Part shown: positions 6,668-38,859 of the stretch, one piece after another
Layout of the letters: each line of letters begins with the position of its first letter
How positions within the stretch are numbered: position 1 is the first letter of the stretch
Source of the DNA: Candidatus Competibacter phosphatis
GTDB taxonomy: Bacteria; Pseudomonadota; Gammaproteobacteria; Competibacterales; Competibacteraceae
Direction: 5' to 3'
Assembly: GCF_012939995.1 (NCBI RefSeq)
Contig: NZ_SPMZ01000002.1
Coordinates: forward strand, 36,463 to 100,462
DNA: 64,000 nucleotides
Notes under the pieces: generated by a model
Database searches by the model: none
Told to the model about the DNA's origin: nothing
The model's input: the letters and a program-made list of their open reading frames with translations, nothing else
Program-made: the position numbers and the translations under genes

Positions 6668-7732
6668 TCAGCCGTATTCGCTGGAACTTTCGCTCTGCAG
6701 GCCGAAAATCAGGTTAGCCTGCTCGGTCCCTCCCGGTGCAAGATCGAGCATGATCTCCATGAAGTCCTTCGTGACTAAATTCTTAGCACGTTTTAGCAAA
6801 AACGGTACGGGGCTGGAGGGTTCGTAGCGAGAGAAGTAGTCGCAAATTTTATCCAACATGCGAATTACGTCTTCGCGGCTGGCGATATCGCCCACCACCA
6901 AGCGCTGCCCCGCCACTGCGCCAGACGCCGCTCCGTCCTCCGACTCGCCTTGCCCCTCGGTCTCGCCGGCTGAACTCACGCCGCGCCGTTGCAGTTGCTC
7001 CGTCAATACCTGCCGGATCTCCTTCAGAACCCCGGTCAGATCGCTCATGTCCGGCGCCTGAGTCACCCCGACCAGATCGGTCAAGGCGGCTTCGATCCGC
7101 TCGACCCGGTCGCGGGCATCGGCGGCCGCTTCGGTGGTGGCCTGCAACACCTCCAGATCGGCATCCTGGAACGCGGCGTCGAGTCGGCTCTGGGTCGGCA
7201 GCTCTTCGTCATCATCCACCACCGGCGTCAGCACACCCGTGGCGACCTGAACATCGCGCAGACTGAACCGTCCTATGGCACGGGAACTGACCAGCGGCGT
7301 CTCCCGCAGGTCGCGCAGGGTGGTTTCCGAATCGCACAGCGCCACGATGGTGTTGATCCGCAGGGTCGGATCGTTGTTGTCGTCCGGGTCGAGCAGCGGA
7401 TAAACCCCATCCCAGTAGCGCTCGATCAGACCTTCCACCAGGGCCAAACCCTCGGCGAAACCCGGAAAGCCATCGCTCTGCAACAACGCTCGGGCCAGGT
7501 AAACCGCCACCCGTAGATCCCGGGTACGCTCCAGCAGGCTCAGGGCGGCTTTCTTGACGCCGCGCCAATCAGGCGGCTCGGCCGGAATAATGGTATCGCC
7601 GTACTGACGCTCGGGCGTTTCCTGAGCCAGTTTTTCCATCTCGGCGAATAAGGGATCGTATTCGAGATCCTCGCCGCACGGCGTATCGGCGGCAATATCG
7701 CTCAGCAATGCTTCGATTTCGATCACACTCAT
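6668..7732 (-). CDS. tssA: T6SS assembly protein TssA (short class, ImpA_N)
   Basis: TssA of 354 residues, placed at the baseplate or distal end to guide tube and sheath assembly. The ImpA_N domain occupies about residues 10-135 (PCGEDLEYDPLFAEMEKLAQ, then DWRGVKKAALSLLERTRDLR and WDGVYPLLDPDD). The C-terminus (YEPSSPVPFLLKRAKNLV, then DLAPGG) matches the class seen in Pseudomonas H1-T6SS. It is the first gene of the minus arm, divergent from tagH. The intergenic region 7733-7896 should therefore hold promoters for both arms; I see no unambiguous sigma54 or sigma70 box there. Confidence 0.92.
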   Translation of the reverse strand: MSVIEIEALLSDIAADTPCGEDLEYDPLFAEMEKLAQETPERQYGDTIIPAEPPDWRGVKKAALSLLERTRDLRVAVYLARALLQSDGFPGFAEGLALVEGLIERYWDGVYPLLDPDDNNDPTLRINTIVALCDSETTLRDLRETPLVSSRAIGRFSLRDVQVATGVLTPVVDDDEELPTQSRLDAAFQDADLEVLQATTEAAADARDRVERIEAALTDLVGVTQAPDMSDLTGVLKEIRQVLTEQLQRRGVSSAGETEGQGESEDGAASGAVAGQRLVVGDIASREDVIRMLDKICDYFSRYEPSSPVPFLLKRAKNLVTKDFMEIMLDLAPGGTEQANLIFGLQSESSSEYG

Positions 7733-7896
7733 CGGTCGTGCGCCTTTTCATCGATTGTCGATTTTCAAGTATAGCCATGCTTGGCTCGATTACCCTGGGC
7801 GGTATAGACTGAAATCTAATGAGCTTATGCGATTGGTTTGATGAACTCCGCCCAAATGCCCCACAAGCGGACCTCCCTGCCAACGGAAATTGCGCT

Positions 7897-9499
7897 ATGC
7901 CCTTGCGATTGACCATCACCAGCTTTCAGCGGCTCTCTCCCGGTCAGGAAACCACCAAAACGCTCGACCGTGGGTCGATCAGCATCGGCCGGGCGGCGCA
8001 AAGCGACTGGGTCCTGCAAGACCCGGAGCGCATCCTGTCTGGACGGCATTGCACCCTCCATTATCAGGATGGCGGTTATTTCCTGACCGACACCAGCACC
8101 AACGGCGTCTATCTCAACGATTCCGAACAGCGCGTCGGCCGCAACCAGATGGTCAGGCTGAAGGATGGCGATCATTTCGTGCTGGGCGAATACGAGATCG
8201 CGGTCGCCTTATCATCCGAAACCGCCGAACCAATAGCGATCCAACCGGAAGGGCCGATCACCGAGGCCGTACCGATTTCAGACCTGATGCCCGCCGCCGG
8301 CACCGCGGAATTGGGCGGCGGTCCCGACAGCATGATCAAACCCTCCTTCGGCGACATCATGGCCGAGGGCAGGGACAGTCTGGGCCTACGCCAGGCGCCG
8401 GGGAAACCGGGCAAGGAGGCGGTGGTCACCGAACCGCCTTCCGATTTGATGGAACCGGAACGGGCGTCCTTCGAACCGCCGAGGCTGATCCCCGAAACGC
8501 CGCCAGCACCGCCCGTCGCCACGCCGATTCCAGAAATACTGCCCCCACCGTTCGAACCCGGACCGGTGCCCATCGACGAACCGCCCGCGGCACGGGCTGA
8601 GCTGGAACCCCCAGCCCAACCGTTTCCCGATATCCTCGAACCGTCACCGGAAGCGCCGCCGGAAATACCGCCGGTGGCCAGCGAACGTCCGGGGGAAAGC
8701 GCCGAACCGCTGATCCCAGAAGACTGGTGGTCGACACCTTCCCCCGCCGCCCAACCCGCGCCACAACCACCGAGCGCACCGCCACCCGAACCCCGCCGGA
8801 TTGCCCCGGAAATACCCGCGCCACCTCCAGCGCGACCCCCCGTACAGCCACGCGCGGCCCGAACCCCGCCCTCCTGCTCAACCGGCTCAACCGGCCGGGC
8901 CGGACACCGATGTCCTGATACGGGCCTTTCTGGAGGGCGCTGGCCTGCCGCACTTGAAACTGACGGCCGAACAACTGCCCGAGTGCATGCGCACCCTGGG
9001 CGAGATCTTCCGCGAAACCGTACAGGGTCTGGTGGAAGTTCTGCTGGCCCGTGGCGATGTCAAAGGCGAGTTCCGCTTGCATCGCACCACCATCGGTCCC
9101 GTCGAAAACAACCCTCTCAAGACCTCGCCAGGCCAACCGCCGCTCAGTCCCGAACAGGTGATGACCCTGTTGCTGGTCCGGCAGAAAGACGCCTATATGT
9201 CGCCCGTGCAGGCGGTGCGCGAGGGCTTCAACGACATCAAGGCGCACCAACTGGCAGTCATGGCCGGGATTCAGGCAGCCCTGACCCGTCTGCTCGAAAG
9301 GTTCGACCCGGGCAACCTGGAAACCCGGCTCGAACAGAGCGTGCTCGACAACATCTGGCCAGGCAACCGCAAGGCCAAATACTGGGACCTGTTCACCACC
9401 GAATACCAGATCATCGCCCGGGAGGCCGAGGACGACTTCAACGAACTGTTTGGCGACGAATTCGCCCGTGCCTACGAAGAACGGTTGGGTGAACGCTGA
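7897..9499 (+). CDS. tagH: T6SS forkhead-associated protein TagH/Fha, one frame break
   Basis: An FHA-domain protein of the T6SS phospho-switch; in Fha1-type systems it binds phosphothreonine produced by PpkA and removed by PppA. The FHA domain is at about residues 10-105 (SIGRAAQSDW, SGRHC, TSTNGVYLND). A long Pro/Glu-rich linker follows, then the conserved T6SS C-terminal domain (LKLTAEQLPECMRTLGEIFRE, later YWDLFTTEYQ and FARAYEERLG). The two parts lie in different frames. One extra base is needed in the linker, most likely in the six-C run at 8836-8841. The start at 7897 is preferred over 7819 because the FHA domain begins directly after it. Confidence 0.85.
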
Positions 9500-9610: not shown

Positions 9611-10966
9611 ATGAGTTGGTACAGTAAAGTTGTGTGGTCCGAGGGGATGTTCCTACGCCCCCAGCACTTCCAACAACAAGACCGCTATTTCGAAGCCTTG
9701 GTCCGGCAATCCTGCCACCCTCTGCGCCCCTACGACTGGGGTATCGCCGAACTAGCCCTGGATCGGGAGGCGCTGGCCCTGGGCAAAATCGCCATCACCA
9801 CCGCTTCCGGTCTGTTACCCGACGGCACACCGTTCAGCATTCCCGACCACGATCCGCCACCCGCGCCGCTGGCGATCGACGCCGACGTGCGCGATACCCG
9901 GATCATGCTGGCCCTGCCGCTGCGGCGGACCGGCATGGCCGACGTGGAACGCGGCGAGCAGCAACAAGACACCGCCGCCCGCTACCGGGCCGTGGCCCAC
10001 GAGGTGCGGGACAACAACGTCGACACCGCCAACAACAGCGCCTTCGTCGAAACCGGCGAGCGCCGGCTACGGCTGTTCCTCGACACCCGCGACTCCAGCG
10101 AGCACACCTGCATCGGCATCGCCCGGGTGCAGGAAAAGCGCCCCGATCAGACGGTGGTGCTGGACCCCGACTACCTGCCGCCCTGCCTGGACTGCCGCGG
10201 CGTACCGGTGCTGCTCGGCTTCGCCACCGAAGTGCTTGGACTGCTGCACCAACGCGGCGATGCCCTGGCTGAGCGAGTGACGGGGGCGGGCACGGCGCGG
10301 GGCGCGGGCGTGGACATTGCCCAGTTCCTGCGCTTGCAGACCGTCAACCGCTTCGAACCGCTGTTCGCCCATCTGGCATCCATGCAGGGGCTGCACCCGG
10401 AAACGTTCTACCAGATCGCCCTGCAACTGGCCGGCGAAATGTCCACCTTCACCGGTAAGACCAAGCGCCGGCCACCACCGTTCCCCGCCTACGACCACGA
10501 CGACCTGCAAAAAACCTTCGGCGCCCTGATCGGCGAGTTGCGCCGCTCGCTCAGTCTGGTCGAAGAGCAGGCGGCCATCCGCATTCCGATCGAAGAACGC
10601 CAGTACGGCATCCGGGTGGCCATCATCACCGATCGCGAACGCCCGCTGCTGACCAAGGCCACCTTCATTCTAGCGGTCCGCGCCGACATGGCGACCGACC
10701 TGCTGCGCACCCGCTTCCCGACCCAGGTCAAAATCGGCCCAGTCGAGCGCATCGCGCAGTTCGTCAACCACCACTTGCCCGGCATCGGGGTCAGCGCGCT
10801 GCCGGTGGCGCCGCGCGAGATCCCCTATCAGGCCGATTTCATCTATTTCCGGCTCGACCGCAGCAGTGAATTCTGGAAACAAGTGCTCACCTCGGGCGGT
10901 TTCGCTTTCCACGTCGGCGGCGAGTTCCCGGGCTTGGACATGGCATTCTGGGCCATCAAAGAGTAA
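9611..10966 (+). CDS. tssK: T6SS baseplate/membrane-complex adaptor TssK
   Basis: TssK/VasE, 451 residues, which links the TssF-TssG baseplate to the TssJLM membrane complex. The N-terminus MSWYSKVVWSEGMFLRPQHF is the family signature; YFRLDRSSEFWKQVL near the end is also typical. Full length with no frame break. It lies 111 nt after tagH and 14 nt before tssL in the plus arm. Confidence 0.95.
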   Translation: MSWYSKVVWSEGMFLRPQHFQQQDRYFEALVRQSCHPLRPYDWGIAELALDREALALGKIAITTASGLLPDGTPFSIPDHDPPPAPLAIDADVRDTRIMLALPLRRTGMADVERGEQQQDTAARYRAVAHEVRDNNVDTANNSAFVETGERRLRLFLDTRDSSEHTCIGIARVQEKRPDQTVVLDPDYLPPCLDCRGVPVLLGFATEVLGLLHQRGDALAERVTGAGTARGAGVDIAQFLRLQTVNRFEPLFAHLASMQGLHPETFYQIALQLAGEMSTFTGKTKRRPPPFPAYDHDDLQKTFGALIGELRRSLSLVEEQAAIRIPIEERQYGIRVAIITDRERPLLTKATFILAVRADMATDLLRTRFPTQVKIGPVERIAQFVNHHLPGIGVSALPVAPREIPYQADFIYFRLDRSSEFWKQVLTSGGFAFHVGGEFPGLDMAFWAIKE

Positions 10967-29752: not shown

Positions 29753-30681
29753 TCATCGCGTTCGTGACCGCAATCCATCCCGCATCCCTTGAAACATGGC
29801 TTGTATTTGGATAATACGGTGAGAATCGAAAAGTGCATGTATGGCAAACGTCAAGGCAAGTTTGATTACTGCCCAAAATTTCCAGACCTTGGGTACATAA
29901 GGACGACATATAAGCTTAAGCGCATTACGGAACAAGTAGCGATGACGAAATGGCGAACGGCTTGGCCAAACACGCCAGCCGAACCACCAGTACCGCAAAC
30001 TGCCTTGCCCCATGCGGTGCTTAAAGATCGCATTCGGAATACCCCATAGCGTATATCCCCGAGCTAACACTCGAAACGACCACTCGGTATCCACATGGTC
30101 GATGAATAAGGATTCATCTAAACCGCCTAACCGCAAAAACAAGTCGATAGACACCAACGTGCCGCTGCCATTCAGATTCGTACAGCGCACAGGCTTAGCT
30201 CTAGCGGATGGATAGAGTCGCCGCCATCGCCAGTGTGTTGCCTGATGGAAGCCATGCGACAAATTGGTCGTCGCATCGATCAGCAAGGGGCCAACACACG
30301 CAACAGATTCCCCCTTGTGCTTGTAAATCCTTAAAGCCCGCCACTAGCGCAGCCAGACTGTTAGGTTCTGGTTCACTATCCTGATCGAGCAGTAAACAAA
30401 AAATACGCCGAAGATCGCATATGCCGCGCAAAGGCAACCCCTTGATTGAGTGCTGCCGCCAAACCAATATTGGCCTCATTCACGACGACATGCACATTAG
30501 GCACGGTTGCACATAAGGCATACAACGCTCGCTGAGCATCAGCGGAAGAGGCATTATCGACCAATAGTTTGAGACAATCTCGAGGCAAAGCCTGCAATTG
30601 CGATTGCAAGAGAAGAAAGTCGGGATGAAATGTCACAGTTACCGTAACAAGGTCGGCCCATCGGAAAGTTTCTATCTCCAT
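29753..30681 (-). CDS. Glycosyltransferase family 2, two frame breaks
   Basis: A GT2 enzyme of about 308 residues resembling rhamnosyltransferases. Segments in order: VTVTFHPDFLLLQSQLQALP with DNASSADAQRAL and VVVNEANIGLAAALNQGVAF; LLLDQDSEPEPNSLAALVAG (DXD site); GSGTLVSIDLFLRLGG and LFIDHVDTEWSFRVLARG. Breaks are one extra base in the six-A run 30398-30403 and one in the five-C run 30310-30314; repair gives AYFCLLLDQD and QGESVACVGPLLIDA. The start is 10 nt from nothing recognisable upstream, and the stop is 10 nt before the next GT2. Confidence 0.8.
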
Positions 30682-31917: not shown

Positions 31918-32328
31918 TTACTCCTGACGCAACAACAGTTGACAATACGTCTCGAAATCAACGAGATGCCCAGACAGCACGGATCGGACGATATCCAAAT
32001 TCAGCTTTTGGTAATCATGAATAGCGACGTTGCGGAATCCAACCATGGCCTGCAAGCGCCGGGATAAATCAGCCGGGATCAGATGTGCCCGCTCCAGCAA
32101 GGAAAACGCGTCCCGGCTATCTTGGGGAATGCCCAGACGGTTGACCCGCACCCGATGCATAGCCACATCGATGCTGGCCTCACACGCCCGCAGCAGGTTG
32201 AGGATGATCGAATCCTGCTTGGTAAAGTGAATCGCCAGCTCGGACTCATGGCCCTCGTACTCCTCCCGAATCCGTCCCAAATAGCGCTCGATCACCGCCA
32301 CCTTGTTCAGAACCACGTCATCGGGCAT
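31918..32328 (-). CDS. hepT: HepT-like HEPN toxin (DUF86)
   Basis: A 136-residue HEPN-domain ribonuclease. The catalytic R-X4-H-X-Y motif is present as RNVAIHDY near residue 98. It pairs with the nucleotidyltransferase gene immediately upstream (11-nt overlap). In characterised HepT/MntA pairs the antitoxin AMPylates the Tyr of this motif. This copy belongs to the longer DUF86 subtype (VLNKVAVIERYLGRIREEY), distinct from the second pair at 62.7 kb. Confidence 0.88.
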   Translation of the reverse strand: MPDDVVLNKVAVIERYLGRIREEYEGHESELAIHFTKQDSIILNLLRACEASIDVAMHRVRVNRLGIPQDSRDAFSLLERAHLIPADLSRRLQAMVGFRNVAIHDYQKLNLDIVRSVLSGHLVDFETYCQLLLRQE

Positions 32329-32722
32329 GAATCCTTCCTCGCTCGTGAATATCTCCGAGAATATCTCGACGAGCCTCGTTCAGCCGCACATAGTCGGCCA
32401 AGGCCCGACTTTCGAACTCCTCGGACCGGAATCGGTCGGCGCAGTAAATGCGGCGGTCATGGCCAAACACTTGCTGGCGTAACACCACAGATGCATTCTG
32501 CAAATCCACCAAGTCCACATCCCGCTTAAATTGCCGGGCCAGATCCTGCGCCAACTCCCAGCAAGCCACACTGGCCATCGGCCTGGGCGATAGGATGGCG
32601 AGGTCAATGTCACTACCAGTGTGTTCAAATGGAGTACCGGCGCTCCCAAACCGATAAATCGCCCAGACCTCGGGTAACGCCTTCAGGATTCGATCAACGA
32701 TCATCTCGTCGGATATCTTCAT
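32318..32722 (-). CDS. mntA: MntA-like minimal nucleotidyltransferase antitoxin
   Basis: A 134-residue nucleotidyltransferase with the GSX10DXD motif (FGSAGTPFEHTGSDIDLAIL). Antitoxin partner of the adjacent HepT, known in this family to inactivate the toxin by adding AMP. The extra C-terminal helices (SEEFESRALADYVRLNEARR) are standard. It is the first gene of the two-gene unit. Confidence 0.87.
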   Translation of the reverse strand: MKISDEMIVDRILKALPEVWAIYRFGSAGTPFEHTGSDIDLAILSPRPMASVACWELAQDLARQFKRDVDLVDLQNASVVLRQQVFGHDRRIYCADRFRSEEFESRALADYVRLNEARRDILGDIHERGRIHAR

Positions 32723-32744: not shown

Positions 32745-33185
32745 CTAAGGCATTAGGTCCCAGCCATCGCGCTCGCTCATGATCTGTTCCAGCTCAAACG
32801 GACAAATCTCTGGAAACAGCGTCTCCTCCAAACCCGTTTCAGCGATCGCCATCAGTACCGCATCAATGTAGGCATCCGCCATAAGTGTCGGTAATTCGGG
32901 GCGCAGACTTGGATTATCGGCCAGCAACCGAGCCACCTGTCGCTGTTGCTCCCGAATCGTCGCTCGCCAACTTCGACCACGCCGTTCCGGTTGATAACGC
33001 CATTTCAACCAATGCATCAACAACACCGCCAACCGGCTCCCCAACGCCCGCCGCTCACTCCGTCCCATGCTTTCCAATTCCTCGGCGATGTTCATGCGAT
33101 CAACTTCCGCCCATCGCCCCGCGCGCAGCAGGGCCGCATTTCGCGTTGCCCATGCGTACAAATCCCGTTCATAAAGGGTTTCCAT
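32745..33185 (-). CDS. DUF29 family protein
   Basis: A 146-residue DUF29 protein (YERDLYAWATRNAALLRAGR, then IAEELESMGRSERRALGSRL and LLMHWLKWRYQPERRGRSWR). The family is common in cyanobacteria and environmental proteobacteria, often in multiple copies near toxin-antitoxin genes; no function is established. It lies 22 nt upstream of the MntA/HepT pair on the same strand. Confidence 0.85.
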   Translation of the reverse strand: METLYERDLYAWATRNAALLRAGRWAEVDRMNIAEELESMGRSERRALGSRLAVLLMHWLKWRYQPERRGRSWRATIREQQRQVARLLADNPSLRPELPTLMADAYIDAVLMAIAETGLEETLFPEICPFELEQIMSERDGWDLMP

Positions 33186-33391
33186 AACGCCACCTAAATC
33201 TCAAGCCAACCGGATAAATCATCGCACCCATCATCCCATTACTTGCGGGCAAGGCTGTTCCAGCAGCCGCCACTACCGCCTCCAGCGTCACTGCCGCCGA
33301 CGCTTGCTCGCCCCAGATTTCCAGAAAGCACGGCATCAACTGTCGGCGCAAAATTCAAATTCCACCTTGCCGCAAGCCTTTTTAATTTCGA

Positions 33392-33952
33392 TCAGCGCCA
33401 TAGTGCCGCCAAATGGACTCGGATCTCCGGTAACCGCTCCAAGGTCAATGTTTCATCAGGTTCCGCTGTCCGGCTCTCCCGATAATTCCCCAGCACCGGT
33501 TCTCGATAGCAGTCCATCCGCCCCTCCGTCGCGTCCAGCAGCCAAACCTCCGGGATACCGTGCCGGGCGTATAAAGGAATTTTCAACTCCCGGTCATAAG
33601 CCAGCGTGCTATTCGCTATCTCGATCAACAGCAGCACATCTCCCGCAGTCGGATGCGCATCGCGATAACCACGATTCACTACCAGCGCCAAGTCCGGCAC
33701 CACTTCGCTATTTTCATCCAGTTGCACTGGGTTCTGAACCCGCACTCGATAATCGCCATAATTCTGAATCGTCAGAATCTGCGCCAATCGATCCACATAA
33801 TCCGCGTGCAGGCTGTTAATCGGCGCCATATCCATCAACTCCCCATCGATCAGTTCCACGCGGTCGGATTCGGTCAGAATCCCCGCCGCGCCAAGCCGCT
33901 GAAAATCGACCACCGCCAGCTTATGTCGCGGGAATTGCACCGTCGCGGCCAT
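33392..33952 (-). CDS. Uma2 family endonuclease-like protein (DUF820)
   Basis: A 186-residue Uma2/DUF820 protein with the PD-(D/E)XK-like fold: GILTESDRVELIDGELMDM, EVVPDLALVV, LLIEIANSTLAYDRELKIPL, YARHGIPEVWLLD. The catalytic acidic/Lys pattern (PDL ... EIANS ... K) is intact. The family is abundant in accessory DNA; its biological target is unknown. Confidence 0.87.
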   Translation of the reverse strand: MAATVQFPRHKLAVVDFQRLGAAGILTESDRVELIDGELMDMAPINSLHADYVDRLAQILTIQNYGDYRVRVQNPVQLDENSEVVPDLALVVNRGYRDAHPTAGDVLLLIEIANSTLAYDRELKIPLYARHGIPEVWLLDATEGRMDCYREPVLGNYRESRTAEPDETLTLERLPEIRVHLAALWR

Positions 33953-33980: not shown

Positions 33981-34898
33981 CTAGACCACCCAGACCAGCA
34001 CCGCCGGCAGCGTCACCAACGCCAGCCCGGTTTCCACCGTCACGATCGCTGCCATCAACGGCGCGTCGCCACCCAGTTGCCGTGCCAGAATATAAGCGGT
34101 GGACGATCCCGGCAGCGCGGCAAAAGTCATCAAAACCGCCGTTTCCAACTGGCCCGGTTGCACCAACCAGCATAGCGTTGCCGCCAGCGCCGGCAATACC
34201 AATAGTTTCAGCGCGCTGACCGCGACCAGCAAGCCCAGCCGGTTCAGCGCCGCTAGTCGCAAGCCCGCGCCCACCGCCAGCAGACCCAACGGCAACGCCG
34301 CCCGCGCCAGAATATCCAGCATCGCCGCCGAGCCCCACGGCAAGCCGATCCCGCTGAGATTCAAGCCAATCCCGACCAGACAGGCCAGGATCAGCGGATT
34401 GGTGATCAAGCCCCGCAACACCCCAGTCACACTGATCGAACCACCGGCGTGCGCGCTCAACACCAGCACGCACAGCACATTGATCATCGGGATCATGAGC
34501 GCCATCACCAGCGCCGCCACCGTGCCGCCCTCGACGTGAAACACCGCCAGCGCCACTGCCAGTCCCACATACGTATTAAAGCGGATCGCACCCTGGTATA
34601 CCGAGCTAAAGGCTGGTCCGTCCACTCCCAGCCACGGCCGTAGCGTATACGCCAGCGCCGTCATCCCCAACAGCAAAACCACCACCACCACCGCCACCGG
34701 CCCGACCGCGTATTCCTCCAGCCGCGCCTGCGCCAAGCGGTTCACCAGCAAGGCCGGAAATAGCAGAAAATAGGTCAGTCGCTCGGCGGCCGGCCAGAAT
34801 CCGTCACCCGGAAACCCCAGCCGCCGCAGCCCCAAACCCAGCAGGATCAGCGCGAAGATCGGCCCCAGCGCGCCGAGAATCAGGGGGAGGTTGTTCAT
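33981..34898 (-). CDS. AEC family transporter
   Basis: A 305-residue auxin-efflux-carrier family permease with about ten TM helices, likely exporting or importing organic or amino acids. Landmarks: LGALGPIFALILLGLGLRR, VYQGAIRFNTYVGLAVALAV, ALPLGLLAVGAGLRL, FAALPGSSTAYILARQLGGD. The ATG at 34898 overlaps the argE stop (ATGA), so it is translated from the argE mRNA. The substrate may relate to ornithine or acetylated amino acids but this is only contextual. Confidence 0.87.
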   Translation of the reverse strand: MNNLPLILGALGPIFALILLGLGLRRLGFPGDGFWPAAERLTYFLLFPALLVNRLAQARLEEYAVGPVAVVVVVLLLGMTALAYTLRPWLGVDGPAFSSVYQGAIRFNTYVGLAVALAVFHVEGGTVAALVMALMIPMINVLCVLVLSAHAGGSISVTGVLRGLITNPLILACLVGIGLNLSGIGLPWGSAAMLDILARAALPLGLLAVGAGLRLAALNRLGLLVAVSALKLLVLPALAATLCWLVQPGQLETAVLMTFAALPGSSTAYILARQLGGDAPLMAAIVTVETGLALVTLPAVLVWVV

Positions 34899-36055
34899 GC
34901 GGATGGCAAACAAAACCGCCCGATCAGCCCTCGCAGCAGATCCAGCGTCGGCTGAATCGTCGCCAGCGACAGAAATTCGTTCGGCTGATGGGCGCATTCC
35001 ACATCGCCGGGACCGAGAATCACCGTCTCCATGCCCAAGGCATTCAGATACGGCCCCTCGGTGCCGAAACTCACCACCCCAGCCGGCGCACCGGTCAGTT
35101 CCTCGGTTGCCCGCACGATGGCGGCCGCCGCTGGCGTTTCCATCGCCTCGATCCCTTCGAACAGCGGCAGGAAATCCAGTCGCAACTCGCTCTCGGTCAG
35201 CAATCGAGCCAACCGACCATGCAACTCGCCGCGCAGGTCCGCCAACGACATTCCCGGCAACGGCCGAATATCGATGTGCAGCTCGCAGTCGGCGCAGATC
35301 CGGTTGGGATTGTCGCCGCCGTGGATATGCCCCAGATTGAGGGTCGGCACCTCGACCTCGAACAACGGGTTGCGGTGGCCCGCTTGCAATTCCGCCCGCC
35401 AGCGCAGCAACTCGCCGATCACCCGGTGCATGCCCTCCAGGGCGCTCACACCCAACGCCGGATTACTGGAATGACCCGAGCGGCCTTCCAGCCGGATCGC
35501 TTCCATCAGGATGCCCTTGTGCATCCGTACCGGTTTCAGCCCGGTCGGTTCGCCGATCAGCGCGTGCCGACCCAGCGGCCGACCGGCCGCCGCCAGCGCC
35601 CGCGCGCCATGCATGCTGCTTTCCTCGTCCGCCGTGGCCAAAATCACCAGCGGCTGGCGCAACGAACCCGCTGAGAACTCCCGCGCCGCTTCCAGCGCCA
35701 GCGCCAGAAAGGACTTCATATCAGCAGTGCCCAGACCATAAATCCGCCCGTCCGCCACCTCTCCGCCAAACGGATCGTATCGCCAGCGCCCGGCATCGAA
35801 CGGCACCGTATCGGTGTGCCCAGCCAGCACCAACCCACCCGGCCCCACCCCCAGCGTGGCGATCAGATTGGCCTTATCCGGCCGTTCCGGTAGCGGTTCG
35901 ATCCGCACCACGAAACCGGCATCCTCCAGCCAATTGGCCAGCAGATCGACCACCGGTCGGTTGCTTTGATCGAACTGCGGCGACACGCTACTGACCGAGG
36001 GAATGGCGATCAGTTGGCGGATACGATCCAGTAACGGGGTTGACGAAATCGGCAT
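34895..36055 (-). CDS. argE: Acetylornithine deacetylase (ArgE), M20 family
   Basis: A 386-residue M20 metallopeptidase that removes acetate from N2-acetylornithine in arginine biosynthesis. Metal-site motifs: VLAGHTDTVPFD, YGLGTADMKSF, ATADEESS, LIGEPTGLKPV, and GDVECAHQPNE at the end. Dimerisation-domain text GRSGHSSNPALGVSALEGMH is present. It is divergent from the GNAT-C39 gene, with 160 nt between. M20 relatives such as DapE are possible, but the ligand-region pattern fits ArgE best. Confidence 0.87.
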   Translation of the reverse strand: MPISSTPLLDRIRQLIAIPSVSSVSPQFDQSNRPVVDLLANWLEDAGFVVRIEPLPERPDKANLIATLGVGPGGLVLAGHTDTVPFDAGRWRYDPFGGEVADGRIYGLGTADMKSFLALALEAAREFSAGSLRQPLVILATADEESSMHGARALAAAGRPLGRHALIGEPTGLKPVRMHKGILMEAIRLEGRSGHSSNPALGVSALEGMHRVIGELLRWRAELQAGHRNPLFEVEVPTLNLGHIHGGDNPNRICADCELHIDIRPLPGMSLADLRGELHGRLARLLTESELRLDFLPLFEGIEAMETPAAAAIVRATEELTGAPAGVVSFGTEGPYLNALGMETVILGPGDVECAHQPNEFLSLATIQPTLDLLRGLIGRFCLPSA

Positions 36056-36215
36056 GAGTTTTCACTAGCGATGGAGGTGAATGCTGCGAGATAATAGCAA
36101 CATTCGCCGGTTGGTATCCCGCGCTTGTCCTGGCCGTTGTCGCCAAGCCGTCTTGCCCATCCCCGTTCGCCCGCCCGACTTTCGAGTCTGGAACCGCTTT
36201 GCCTTGAAATCCGCC

Positions 36216-37334
36216 ATGCCGCGCGCCGCTACTCCGGACGACATTCCAGCCCTGTTGGCCATCGAGAACCGCTGTTTCAGCAGCGACCGGCTGTCCCGCC
36301 GTAGTTTCCGTCACCTGCTAACCCGCGGCAACGCGATCACCTTGGTCGAAGAAGACGCCGATCGCATTCGCGGCTACGTGCTGCTGCTGTTCTCGCGCGG
36401 CACCTCAATGGCCCGCTTGTACTCCATCGCTGTCCACCCGGATTTTGCTCGCTGTAAGATCGGCGACCGCCTGCTGGAAGCCGCCGAGACCGTCGCCCTG
36501 GAGCGCGATTGTGTGTCGATGCGGTTGGAGGTCCGCCGCGACAACCCCCCTTCGCTGAACCTGTTCCGTCGCCACGGCTACCGCCAGTTCAAGGAAGTGC
36601 TGGATTATTACGAAGACCACATGACCGCGCTGCGCTTCGAAAAGCGCCTGGTCCCGCAACTCCAACTCGATCTGGTCAAGGTCCCCTACTACCAGCAGAC
36701 CCTCGATTTCACCTGCGGTCCAGCGGCGCTGATGATGGCCATGAAGGCGCTGGACCCCACGCTCGAACTGGACCGCAAGCTGGAACTGCGGTTGTGGCGC
36801 GAGGCTACCACCATCTTCATGACCGCCGGCCATGGCGGCTGCGGCCCCTACGGATTGGCGCTGTCGTCCTATCGACGCGGTTTCGATCTGGAGATTCACG
36901 TCAACGAAGACGGCGTGTTCCTGGTCGATTCGGTCCGCAACCCGGAAAAAAAGGAAGTGATGCGACTGGTGCAGGAAGACTGGATCGAAGAATTGAGCCG
37001 GTTGCCAGTCGCCTTGTATCGCGGCAGTCTGGGCGTGGACGAACTACGGCAGAAATTCGAAACCGGCGGTATTCCGCTGGTGCTGATCAGTTCCTACCGG
37101 ATCTATGGCGAGCGCTTCCCGCACTGGGTGGTCGTCACCGGTTTCGACGATCACTGCATCTATGTCCACGACCCGTTCGTCGATGACGAAAACGGCGAAA
37201 CCGTCACCGATTCCGTCAACATGCCGATTTCGCACCGGGAGTTCCAGCGCATGGCCCGCTATGGCAAGGTCGCGCAAAAAGCCGTGCTGATCCTCTATCG
37301 CTCCAACCGTCGCCCCGAACCGCCGGCCACTTAA
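36216..37334 (+). CDS. GNAT acetyltransferase fused to C39-like peptidase
   Basis: A 372-residue two-domain protein. Residues 1-145 are a RimI-like GNAT domain (MPRAATPDDIPALLAIENRC, ARLYSIAVHPDFARCKIGDR, NPPSLNLFRRHGYR). Residues 150-360 are a C39/papain-like cysteine peptidase fold: QTLDFTCGPAALMMAMKAL with the candidate Cys, FPHWVVVTGFDDH with His, and VHDPFVDD with Asp. It is followed 43 nt later by a RimK-like ATP-grasp ligase, a conserved pairing. A peptide-tag synthesis and removal system has been proposed for such pairs on comparative grounds. The start at 36216 is chosen because the GNAT domain begins there. Confidence 0.85.
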   Translation: MPRAATPDDIPALLAIENRCFSSDRLSRRSFRHLLTRGNAITLVEEDADRIRGYVLLLFSRGTSMARLYSIAVHPDFARCKIGDRLLEAAETVALERDCVSMRLEVRRDNPPSLNLFRRHGYRQFKEVLDYYEDHMTALRFEKRLVPQLQLDLVKVPYYQQTLDFTCGPAALMMAMKALDPTLELDRKLELRLWREATTIFMTAGHGGCGPYGLALSSYRRGFDLEIHVNEDGVFLVDSVRNPEKKEVMRLVQEDWIEELSRLPVALYRGSLGVDELRQKFETGGIPLVLISSYRIYGERFPHWVVVTGFDDHCIYVHDPFVDDENGETVTDSVNMPISHREFQRMARYGKVAQKAVLILYRSNRRPEPPAT

Positions 37335-37377
37335 CCACCCTAACCGCACACTCGCTTTATCAGGACGCTTTGCACCG

Positions 37378-38859
37378 ATGGCCGATCACATCATCCTGGT
37401 GGAAAATCCCACCGAATGGAAACCCCATTTTCCCAAACTACCCGTCGTCGCCGCCAAGGACTACCTGGCCAAACCCGAATACTCCACCGGCCGCAGCCTG
37501 CGGGTACTCAACCTGTGCCGCAGCTACCGTTACCTAAGTGTCGGTTACTACTGCTCGCTGCTGGCCGAGGCCCGACGCCACCGGGTGATCCCCAGCGTAC
37601 GCACCCTCAACGATCTCAGCCGCAAGTCGATCTACAGCCTGGACGTCGAGGATCTGGACGACCATGTCCAGCAGGTGCTGGGCAAGCCCCGACCCGGCTT
37701 CACTGCCACGGCCTTCGAACTGGATATCTTCTTCGGCCAGTGTGCCGCCAAGGAACTACAGGAGCTGGCCCGACAACTGTTCGATGCCTTCCGCTCACCG
37801 TTGCTACGCGTGGAATTCCGATTGCAAGGCAAGTGGCGAATCGCCACCCTCAAGGCACTGCACCTGCATTCGCTGTCGGCCGAACAGGAGGAGATGTTTC
37901 TCGGAGCACTGGCGGCTTATCTCAGCCGGCGCTGGCGGCAGCCGCGGGTCCGCAGCAGTAACTACCGCTACGATCTGGCGATGCTGCACAATCCCAAGGA
38001 AGCCATGCCGCCGTCCAACCCCAAGGGACTGCAACAGTTCATCAAGATCGGCCGCGAATGCGGGGTCAATGTCGAATTGGTCGAGAAAAAGGATTTTGGC
38101 CGGCTGGCCGAATTCGACGCGCTGTTCATCCGCGAAACCACCGGCATCGACCACTACACCTATACCTTCGCCAAAAAGGCGGAAAGCGAAGGCATGGTGG
38201 TCATCGACGATCCCGACTCCATCCTCAAGTGCACCAACAAAGTCTATCTAGATGAGTTACTGCGCACCCACCGGGTCCGCACGCCAAAAACCGTCATCGT
38301 CCGCCGCGACAATCTGGAACGGGTGGATGGCGAAATCGACTACCCCATCGTACTGAAGATTCCCGACGGCTCGTTTTCACGCGGCGTGTTCAAGGTCAAT
38401 GATCGGACTGAACTGCTGGACATGGCCGCTAAACTGTTCAAGTCCTCCGACCTGCTGCTGGCACAGGAATTTCTCTATACCGAATTCGACTGGCGGGTAG
38501 GAATTCTCAACAAGACGCCATTGTTCGTCTGTCAGTATTTCATGTCCAAGGAGCACTGGCAGATCTACAACCACGAACCCGGCCAAAAAACCGGTAACCG
38601 CGCCGGCGATTTCAAAACCTTCCGGGTCGAAGATGCGCCGGAGGTGGTGGTCAAGACGGCGCTCAAGGCGGCCAACCTGATCGGCAACGGCTTATATGGC
38701 GTGGATTTGAAACAGACCGACAAGGGCGTGGTGGTAATCGAAGTCAACGACAACCCCAACATCGATCACGGCATCGAGGACGCGGTGCTCAAGGAAAATC
38801 TTTATCGCACCATCGTCGAAGACATCGTCTGGCGCTTGGATCGCAAGCGGGGAAAATAA
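37378..38859 (+). CDS. RimK-like ATP-grasp protein
   Basis: A 493-residue ligase. The N-terminal 190 residues (RLAN-type region: GRSLRVLNLCRSYRYLSVGY) precede a pre-ATP-grasp domain (LAMLHNPKEAMPPSNPKGLQ) and an ATP-grasp domain with FIRETTGIDHYTYTF, VVIDDPDSILKCTNKVYL, VLKIPDGSFSRGVFKV and VIEVNDNPNIDHGIED. RimK relatives add amino acids such as glutamate to a protein or peptide C-terminus. Its partner is the GNAT-C39 protein just upstream. No obvious precursor peptide is encoded nearby. Confidence 0.87.
   Translation: MADHIILVENPTEWKPHFPKLPVVAAKDYLAKPEYSTGRSLRVLNLCRSYRYLSVGYYCSLLAEARRHRVIPSVRTLNDLSRKSIYSLDVEDLDDHVQQVLGKPRPGFTATAFELDIFFGQCAAKELQELARQLFDAFRSPLLRVEFRLQGKWRIATLKALHLHSLSAEQEEMFLGALAAYLSRRWRQPRVRSSNYRYDLAMLHNPKEAMPPSNPKGLQQFIKIGRECGVNVELVEKKDFGRLAEFDALFIRETTGIDHYTYTFAKKAESEGMVVIDDPDSILKCTNKVYLDELLRTHRVRTPKTVIVRRDNLERVDGEIDYPIVLKIPDGSFSRGVFKVNDRTELLDMAAKLFKSSDLLLAQEFLYTEFDWRVGILNKTPLFVCQYFMSKEHWQIYNHEPGQKTGNRAGDFKTFRVEDAPEVVVKTALKAANLIGNGLYGVDLKQTDKGVVVIEVNDNPNIDHGIEDAVLKENLYRTIVEDIVWRLDRKRGK

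Follow-up and report, generated by a model that had tools for sequence, protein, structure and literature searches.

What do an acetyltransferase, a papain-like peptidase and an ATP-grasp ligase make, or take apart, when they are encoded side by side? The question is raised by two adjacent genes in the window, i.e. the whole 64,000-nucleotide stretch of DNA analysed here, which belongs to a wastewater bacterium with a Candidatus Competibacter-like genome (G000). These genes are (i) a GNAT-DUF3335 fusion gene (hereafter GNAT-C39) at 36216-37334 (+); and, after a gap of 43 bp, (ii) an RLAN-ATP-grasp ligase gene at 37378-38859 (+). A first-pass annotation had read them as a tagging and untagging system for peptides or proteins. 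The reading preferred here, with a probability of roughly 0.45, is that the two genes encode a non-ribosomal, cytoplasmic unit for amide synthesis with turnover built in, whose product would be an N-capped acid-amino-acid conjugate. In more general terms, the enzymes most likely serve to make a capped amino-acid or peptide compound and, in the usual case, to degrade it as well. The features of the locus are the following:

34895..36055 (-): divergently oriented ArgE-type deacetylase, in this lineage a probable accessory (NF003474)
36216..36650 (+): GNAT N-acetyltransferase domain, RimI/Ard1-like (aa 1-145; Pfam Acetyltransf_1, PDB folds, Glu105)
36681..37295 (+): papain-like C39-type peptidase domain, DUF3335 (aa 156-360; PF11814, Gln161/Cys167/His303/Asp319)
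37296..37334 (+): end of the GNAT-C39 gene, with C-terminal tail and stop codon (ORF list)
37453..37902 (+): RLAN domain, N-terminal in the ligase (aa 26-175; PF14401, 6.6e-54)
37969..38859 (+): RimK/LysX/ArgX-like pre-ATP-grasp and ATP-grasp domain (aa 198-493; PF08443, PF02655)

No terminator-like site was found on the + strand in the 43 bp between both genes. The longest ORF of the first gene extends from 36081 to 37334 (+); the ATG at 36216 is the preferred start because the resulting 372 aa correspond to the length of the nearest relatives (L002 and L003). The second ORF encodes 493 aa, and the AlphaFold models of the two proteins have a mean pLDDT of 90 each. Elsewhere in the window, the - strand carries an MntA/HepT-type toxin-antitoxin pair at 31918-32722 (MntA, NF047752, 100 bits versus 60; HepT-like, PF01934, 5e-25), which is adjoined by DUF29 and Uma2-type putative nuclease genes at 32745-33952 (-). 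A GT2 gene at 29753-30681 (-) seems to be split over several frames, of which 30376-30681 retains a GT2 match; the split looks like a frameshift, decay or an assembly error.

According to Pfam, the first protein combines Acetyltransf_1 (PF00583, 3e-14) with DUF3335 (PF11814, "Peptidase_C39 like", 5.4e-86), plus a weaker match to C39_2 (PF13529, 3.6e-7). Among 43 aligned GNAT-C39 relatives, Cys167, His303 and the oxyanion Gln161 of the peptidase are invariant, while the third residue, Asp319, is conserved in 37 and replaced by Glu in 6. The original description of an acetyltransferase joined to a papain-like peptidase with Cys, His and Asp in place is thereby borne out. The GNAT base Glu105 is invariant in the aligned relatives as well, and position 117, which we take to align with the acid Tyr115 of RimI, is Tyr in 37 and Phe in 6, with the window protein among the latter. 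The closest PDB folds of the GNAT part are RimI (2cnm, 5isv, 9mto) and Ard1 (4pv6), with TM-scores to the target of up to 0.90. All the Foldseek matches listed for the model cover this part and none the papain-like one, so that Pfam and residue conservation are the basis for assigning the papain-like fold. RimI and Ard1 are alpha-amine acetyltransferases of protein N termini. The window GNAT has the fold and the base Glu105 in common with them but differs in its peptidase fusion, in the Phe at the acid position and in missing the RimI equivalog cut-off (TIGR01575, 64.6 versus 86.4).

The second protein unites RLAN (PF14401) and RimK/ATP-grasp domains (PF08443, PF02655), and its ATP-grasp residues K288, K327, D443, E455 and N457 are invariant among 71 aligned ligases, in agreement with its initial assignment as a RimK-type ligase. 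Loss of active-site residues in homologues, which the first-pass annotation had named as evidence against its reading, was looked for in the 43 GNAT-C39 proteins and the 71 ligases and did not appear. The best PDB matches of the ligase are ArgX (3vpb, complex with LysW/Glu) and LysX/ArgX (5k2m, with LysW-gamma-AAA); the RLAN domain lies outside their coverage. The amino acids that ArgX, LysX and RimK attach to a carboxylate are acidic; RimK and LysX act on proteins or carrier proteins, and RimK extends the C terminus of ribosomal protein S6. The window ligase shares the ATP-grasp fold and catalytic residues with these enzymes but carries an additional N-terminal RLAN domain and scores far under the cut-offs of the RimK (TIGR00768, 79.3 versus 143.4; NF007764, 21.2 versus 331) and LysX/ArgX (TIGR02144, 73.6 versus 275.6) models. 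To name Glu as the residue added would be a family-level guess.

The RLAN/DUF3335 gene pair is an already known, uncharacterised kind (Pfam RLAN, DUF3335). Presumably, the Pfam RLAN entry already mentions GNAT-papain-like partners, as well as GCS2 and M20 neighbours. The window pair has the same domain families and departs from this association in nothing: an RLAN-ATP-grasp protein, an adjacent GNAT-DUF3335 protein and, with the caveat of Phe117, intact catalytic residues are all present. In PMC10318531, the fusion of DUF3335 to GNATs is ascribed to Iyer et al. (2009, Mol BioSyst, doi 10.1039/b917682a); the literature searched, with Iyer et al. (2009) outside the search, yielded no experimental study or substrate of the pair. 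To the association as given in Pfam and PMC10318531, the present survey adds (i) counts; (ii) the absence of C39 proteins from whole genomes; (iii) GNAT-RLAN fusions; (iv) an ArgE cassette found across classes; and (v) links to DUF155 and DUF2817. An anti-phage defence role was discarded, since neither protein has a PADLOC match.

Do the two genes belong together at all? In the Competibacteraceae, the label borne by nearly all relatives of the window at 87-97% identity, the whole neighbourhood is syntenic, including the AEC transporter, HiPIP and penicillin acylase genes, and adjacency within this family therefore proves nothing alone; two functionally unrelated genes might be held together by lineage synteny only, like those flanking genes. 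Nevertheless, GNAT-C39 adjoins RLAN in Aeromonadaceae, Zetaproteobacteria, Bdellovibrionota, Gemmatimonadota, Verrucomicrobiota and others, and outside Competibacteraceae the two genes are found on the same strand or on opposite strands. This recurrence, in both orientations and without the other neighbours, in Pseudomonadota, Bdellovibrionota, Gemmatimonadota and Verrucomicrobiota refutes mere synteny, which is hardly credible also in view of the strong co-occurrence, correlated protein distances and GNAT-RLAN fusions described below. The AEC, HiPIP and penicillin acylase genes, syntenic within Competibacteraceae only, were rejected as parts of the system.

Among 299 Pseudomonadota genomes, RLAN was found in 60, DUF3335 in 51 and both in 50 (Fisher p about 1e-45, with relatedness ignored). 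RLAN is also present in Bacteroidota (23 of 198 genomes). Almost all the RLAN genes examined in the Pseudomonadota sample adjoin a GNAT; the sole fetched RLAN locus of the sample without an adjacent one, L145, is accompanied by a GNAT-C39 gene on another contig (L146). The only sampled genome with DUF3335 and no RLAN, G008, encodes a stand-alone DUF3335 protease without GNAT (L149, 6620-7321). The pairwise distances of RLAN and GNAT-C39 proteins correlate (Spearman 0.53 over 31 thinned loci, with none of 5000 permutations as high), which, as a correlation of this pair alone, shows co-inheritance.

Two kinds of fusion are known in this group: the GNAT is fused to the protease in most loci and to the ligase in eight, with GNAT-RLAN-ATP-grasp as one polypeptide in L079, L151 and 6 of 22 further Bacteroidota loci. 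Hence, the three activities are placed in one pathway. A common pathway for the RLAN ligase and GNAT-C39 is supported by co-occurrence, cross-phylum adjacency and both kinds of fusion. In a soil MAG (L014, 6882-9482), GNAT-C39 and RLAN-ATP-grasp form a single continuous ORF, either a real fusion or a sequencing error.

Not all the parts are equally constant. A stand-alone GNAT lies beside RLAN in 10 of 10 sampled RLAN genomes that lack DUF3335, and the whole genomes of Nevskiaceae, Terasakiella and Bauldia with RLAN and GNAT contain neither DUF3335 nor the other C39 type. In a second gene set, the GNAT is missing and its place is taken by GCS2, a glutamate-cysteine-ligase-like enzyme; the operon then comprises a C39-like protease, RLAN, GCS2 and, in many cases, an FGase. 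Such operons are those of Rufibacter, Legionella, Planctomycetota and Bdellovibrionota, and also of most RLAN loci of Bacteroidota. In the RLAN tree, GCS2-type and GNAT-only loci do not form separate groups. Since genomes without C39 keep RLAN and GNAT, and since GCS2 replaces GNAT, the core consists of the ligase and one further enzyme, either acyl- or amide-forming. The protease, though common, is dispensable in the GNAT type.

Several loci of these types have further peculiarities. L150 and L151 have two GNAT copies each, one with or fused to RLAN and the other fused to C39, which suggests that the two can have separate roles. In Terasakiella (L075, 9460-11481), two GNAT genes near RLAN are separated by genes for a small protein that begins like a signal peptide (10016-10300) and for a protein of 178 aa that matches no Pfam family. 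In the GCS2-type locus L061, the C39-like protein (7275-7991) has a weak, below-cut-off match (6e-5) to Guanylate_cyc_2 (PF09778), the family of human GUCD1 and the closest relative of DUF3335 (PMC10318531).

The genes around the pair give some hints about its chemistry. The divergent window ArgE passes the acetylornithine deacetylase cut-offs (NF003474, 540 bits versus 460), and L163, from another class, has the same ArgE / GNAT-C39 / RLAN arrangement (62, 60 and 57% identity, respectively), while the remaining flanking genes differ. ArgJ, which makes ArgE unnecessary for arginine synthesis, is encoded elsewhere in G000, G001 and G311 (Candidatus Contendobacter odensis), so ArgE should be dispensable for that purpose in the genomes with the ArgE cassette. 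That ArgE travels with the cassette across classes, when the other flanks do not, in genomes that encode ArgJ, argues for a conjugate as product; on the other hand, ArgE adjoins the pair in one region of the tree only (the Legionella M20 protein of L061 is just 28% identical), and ArgE may be retained alongside ArgJ for arginine in some bacteria. DUF2817 (PF10994), which we take to be M14-like, recurs in the vicinity of RLAN or GNAT-C39, with eight loci in all, and points in the same direction as the ArgE cassette. ArgE and FGase are families with characterised members acting on N-acyl amino acids. The interchange of GNAT and GCS2, together with FGase, ArgE and DUF2817 as neighbours, thus suggests glutamate-like or N-acylated amino-acid chemistry, and the recurring hydrolases are no less compatible with small-molecule metabolism than with protein modification.

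Another neighbour is DUF155 (PF02582, RMND1 family), found near the pair in seven Pseudomonadota loci and three GCS2-type Bacteroidota operons. It lies in or beside operons of both system types (L214, L216, L217, L166, L148, L150 and L160, as DUF155 of the RMND1/Sif2 kind), and Pfam confirmed it in the GCS2-type L214 and L216; a DUF155-like match in L073 was dropped, as Pfam did not confirm it. In L148, GNAT-C39 is unlinked from RLAN and is grouped with DUF2817 and DUF155 in what resembles an operon. When the family dominating the signal is set aside, DUF155 and DUF2817 co-occur less strongly with RLAN (p 0.006 and 0.001, respectively), and neither was found in G000. The RLAN ligase and the bacterial homologues of RMND1 may act in a common pathway. 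Human RMND1 is tied to mitochondrial disease with respiratory-chain defects.

A linked substrate was also sought among small ORFs of 20-130 aa in the gaps around about 100 loci. Clustering gave genus-restricted or compositional matches alone, with no small ORF conserved across lineages beside the pair, in line with the earlier remark that no precursor peptide is seen nearby. This result weighs on the possibility that the ligase loads an amino acid on an unlinked small carrier, as ArgX/LysX do with LysW, from which a C39 or M20-type hydrolase would release the product. The best PDB matches, 3vpb and 5k2m, are complexes of precisely that kind, and deacylases of the M20 type are neighbours in the window, L163 and L061; but no LysW-like or other small carrier ORF is conserved beside the pair in the loci covered, and the LysX equivalog cut-off is missed. 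Carrier-based biosynthesis is accordingly considered very improbable.

The same search, together with the variants, bears on protein tagging, by which the ligase would extend a protein C terminus as RimK does, the GNAT, like RimI, would acetylate an N terminus, and removal of the tag would fall to the C39 domain. The kinship of the ligase with RimK/LysX/ArgX, which includes enzymes that modify proteins or carrier proteins, and that of the GNAT with RimI and Ard1, which acetylate protein N termini, favour this idea and count against a small conjugate, and DUF155/RMND1 homologues in operons of both system types could suit a protein substrate too. Yet C39 is absent from whole genomes with RLAN and GNAT, the GNAT can be exchanged for GCS2, often with FGase, the TIGR00768 and TIGR01575 cut-offs are missed and no co-conserved linked substrate was found near about 100 loci. 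In our judgement, protein tagging is rather unlikely, though to be reckoned with. From the first-pass proposal, the domains, their pairing and the common pathway have stood; "untagging" is optional, because the C39 protein is missing from the whole genomes of several lineages.

The C39-like domain might otherwise be a transpeptidase or ligase-coupled transferase, similar to phytochelatin synthase (gamma-Glu-Cys), in a set that makes an oligomeric peptide. Papain-like families do include transferases (PMC10318531), and GCS2-type sets pair the C39-like protein with a glutamate-cysteine-ligase homologue; against this, the C39 domain is dispensable in several lineages, and such an oligomer-forming role seems improbable.

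A precedent for the preferred amide-building reading exists in Ngg, which acetylates one glutamine and joins a second one to it, toward the osmolyte NAGGN; acetylation and peptide-bond formation are thus carried out by one protein, with a peptidase in the operon (PMC8070244). The window pair resembles this NAGGN synthetase in uniting GNAT activity with peptide-bond formation, and in the peptidase. As NAGGN synthase itself the pair was rejected: neither the ligase nor the GNAT matches TIGR03103 (Ngg) at E 1e-3, and G000 encodes a bona fide, full-scoring Ngg elsewhere (C1:17822-19450; 871 bits versus 569). The Competibacter-like lineage thus probably makes NAGGN by that route and, since the pair is not Ngg by the family model and G000 holds a separate Ngg, the product of the pair should be another compound.

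The amide-building reading would work as follows: (i) the RLAN-ATP-grasp enzyme would activate a carboxylate at the expense of ATP and couple it with an amino compound, its substrate probably being an acidic amino acid, by analogy with the LysX/ArgX/RimK relatives; (ii) the RimI-like GNAT would cap the free alpha-amine of the acid or of the product with acetyl; (iii) the result would be a dipeptide-like conjugate with an N-terminal cap, broadly comparable to N-acetylglutaminylglutamine amide; and (iv) the fused C39 papain-like domain would hydrolyse the amide when needed, and the neighbouring ArgE could take off the acetyl. In the alternative gene set, the GCS2 ligase would provide a gamma-glutamyl-type amide cap in place of acetyl. 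The reaction order, the identities of acid and amine, acetyl as the acyl group and a small metabolite as product are what we infer from the families and their arrangement. This scheme is favoured by the co-occurrence of RLAN and DUF3335 (50/60 and 50/51), the GNAT-RLAN fusions and the exchange of GNAT for GCS2; by the addition of acidic amino acids by the closest solved ligases, ArgX/LysX, and by RimK; by the ArgE of the cassette (62% identical) and the recurrence of DUF2817; and by the lack of a conserved linked substrate ORF, with Ngg as paradigm.

What makes the locus interesting is less a new type of system than a question that has become more accessible to testing. It is conceivable, if on balance doubtful, that these genes represent a widespread unrecognised metabolite or cofactor pathway apart from NAGGN, in which an RLAN ligase works with a GNAT or GCS2 cap and C39, FGase, DUF2817 or ArgE provides turnover. 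The exchange of GNAT and GCS2 and the link to DUF155 lead to specific predictions testable in culturable strains; if true, the DUF155/RMND1 link would open a first bacterial route to what the RMND1 family does biochemically. With the ligase present in about one fifth of the sampled Pseudomonadota genomes (60/299) and about one ninth of those of Bacteroidota (23/198), a defined product would assign a function to many genes that are annotated by domain alone.
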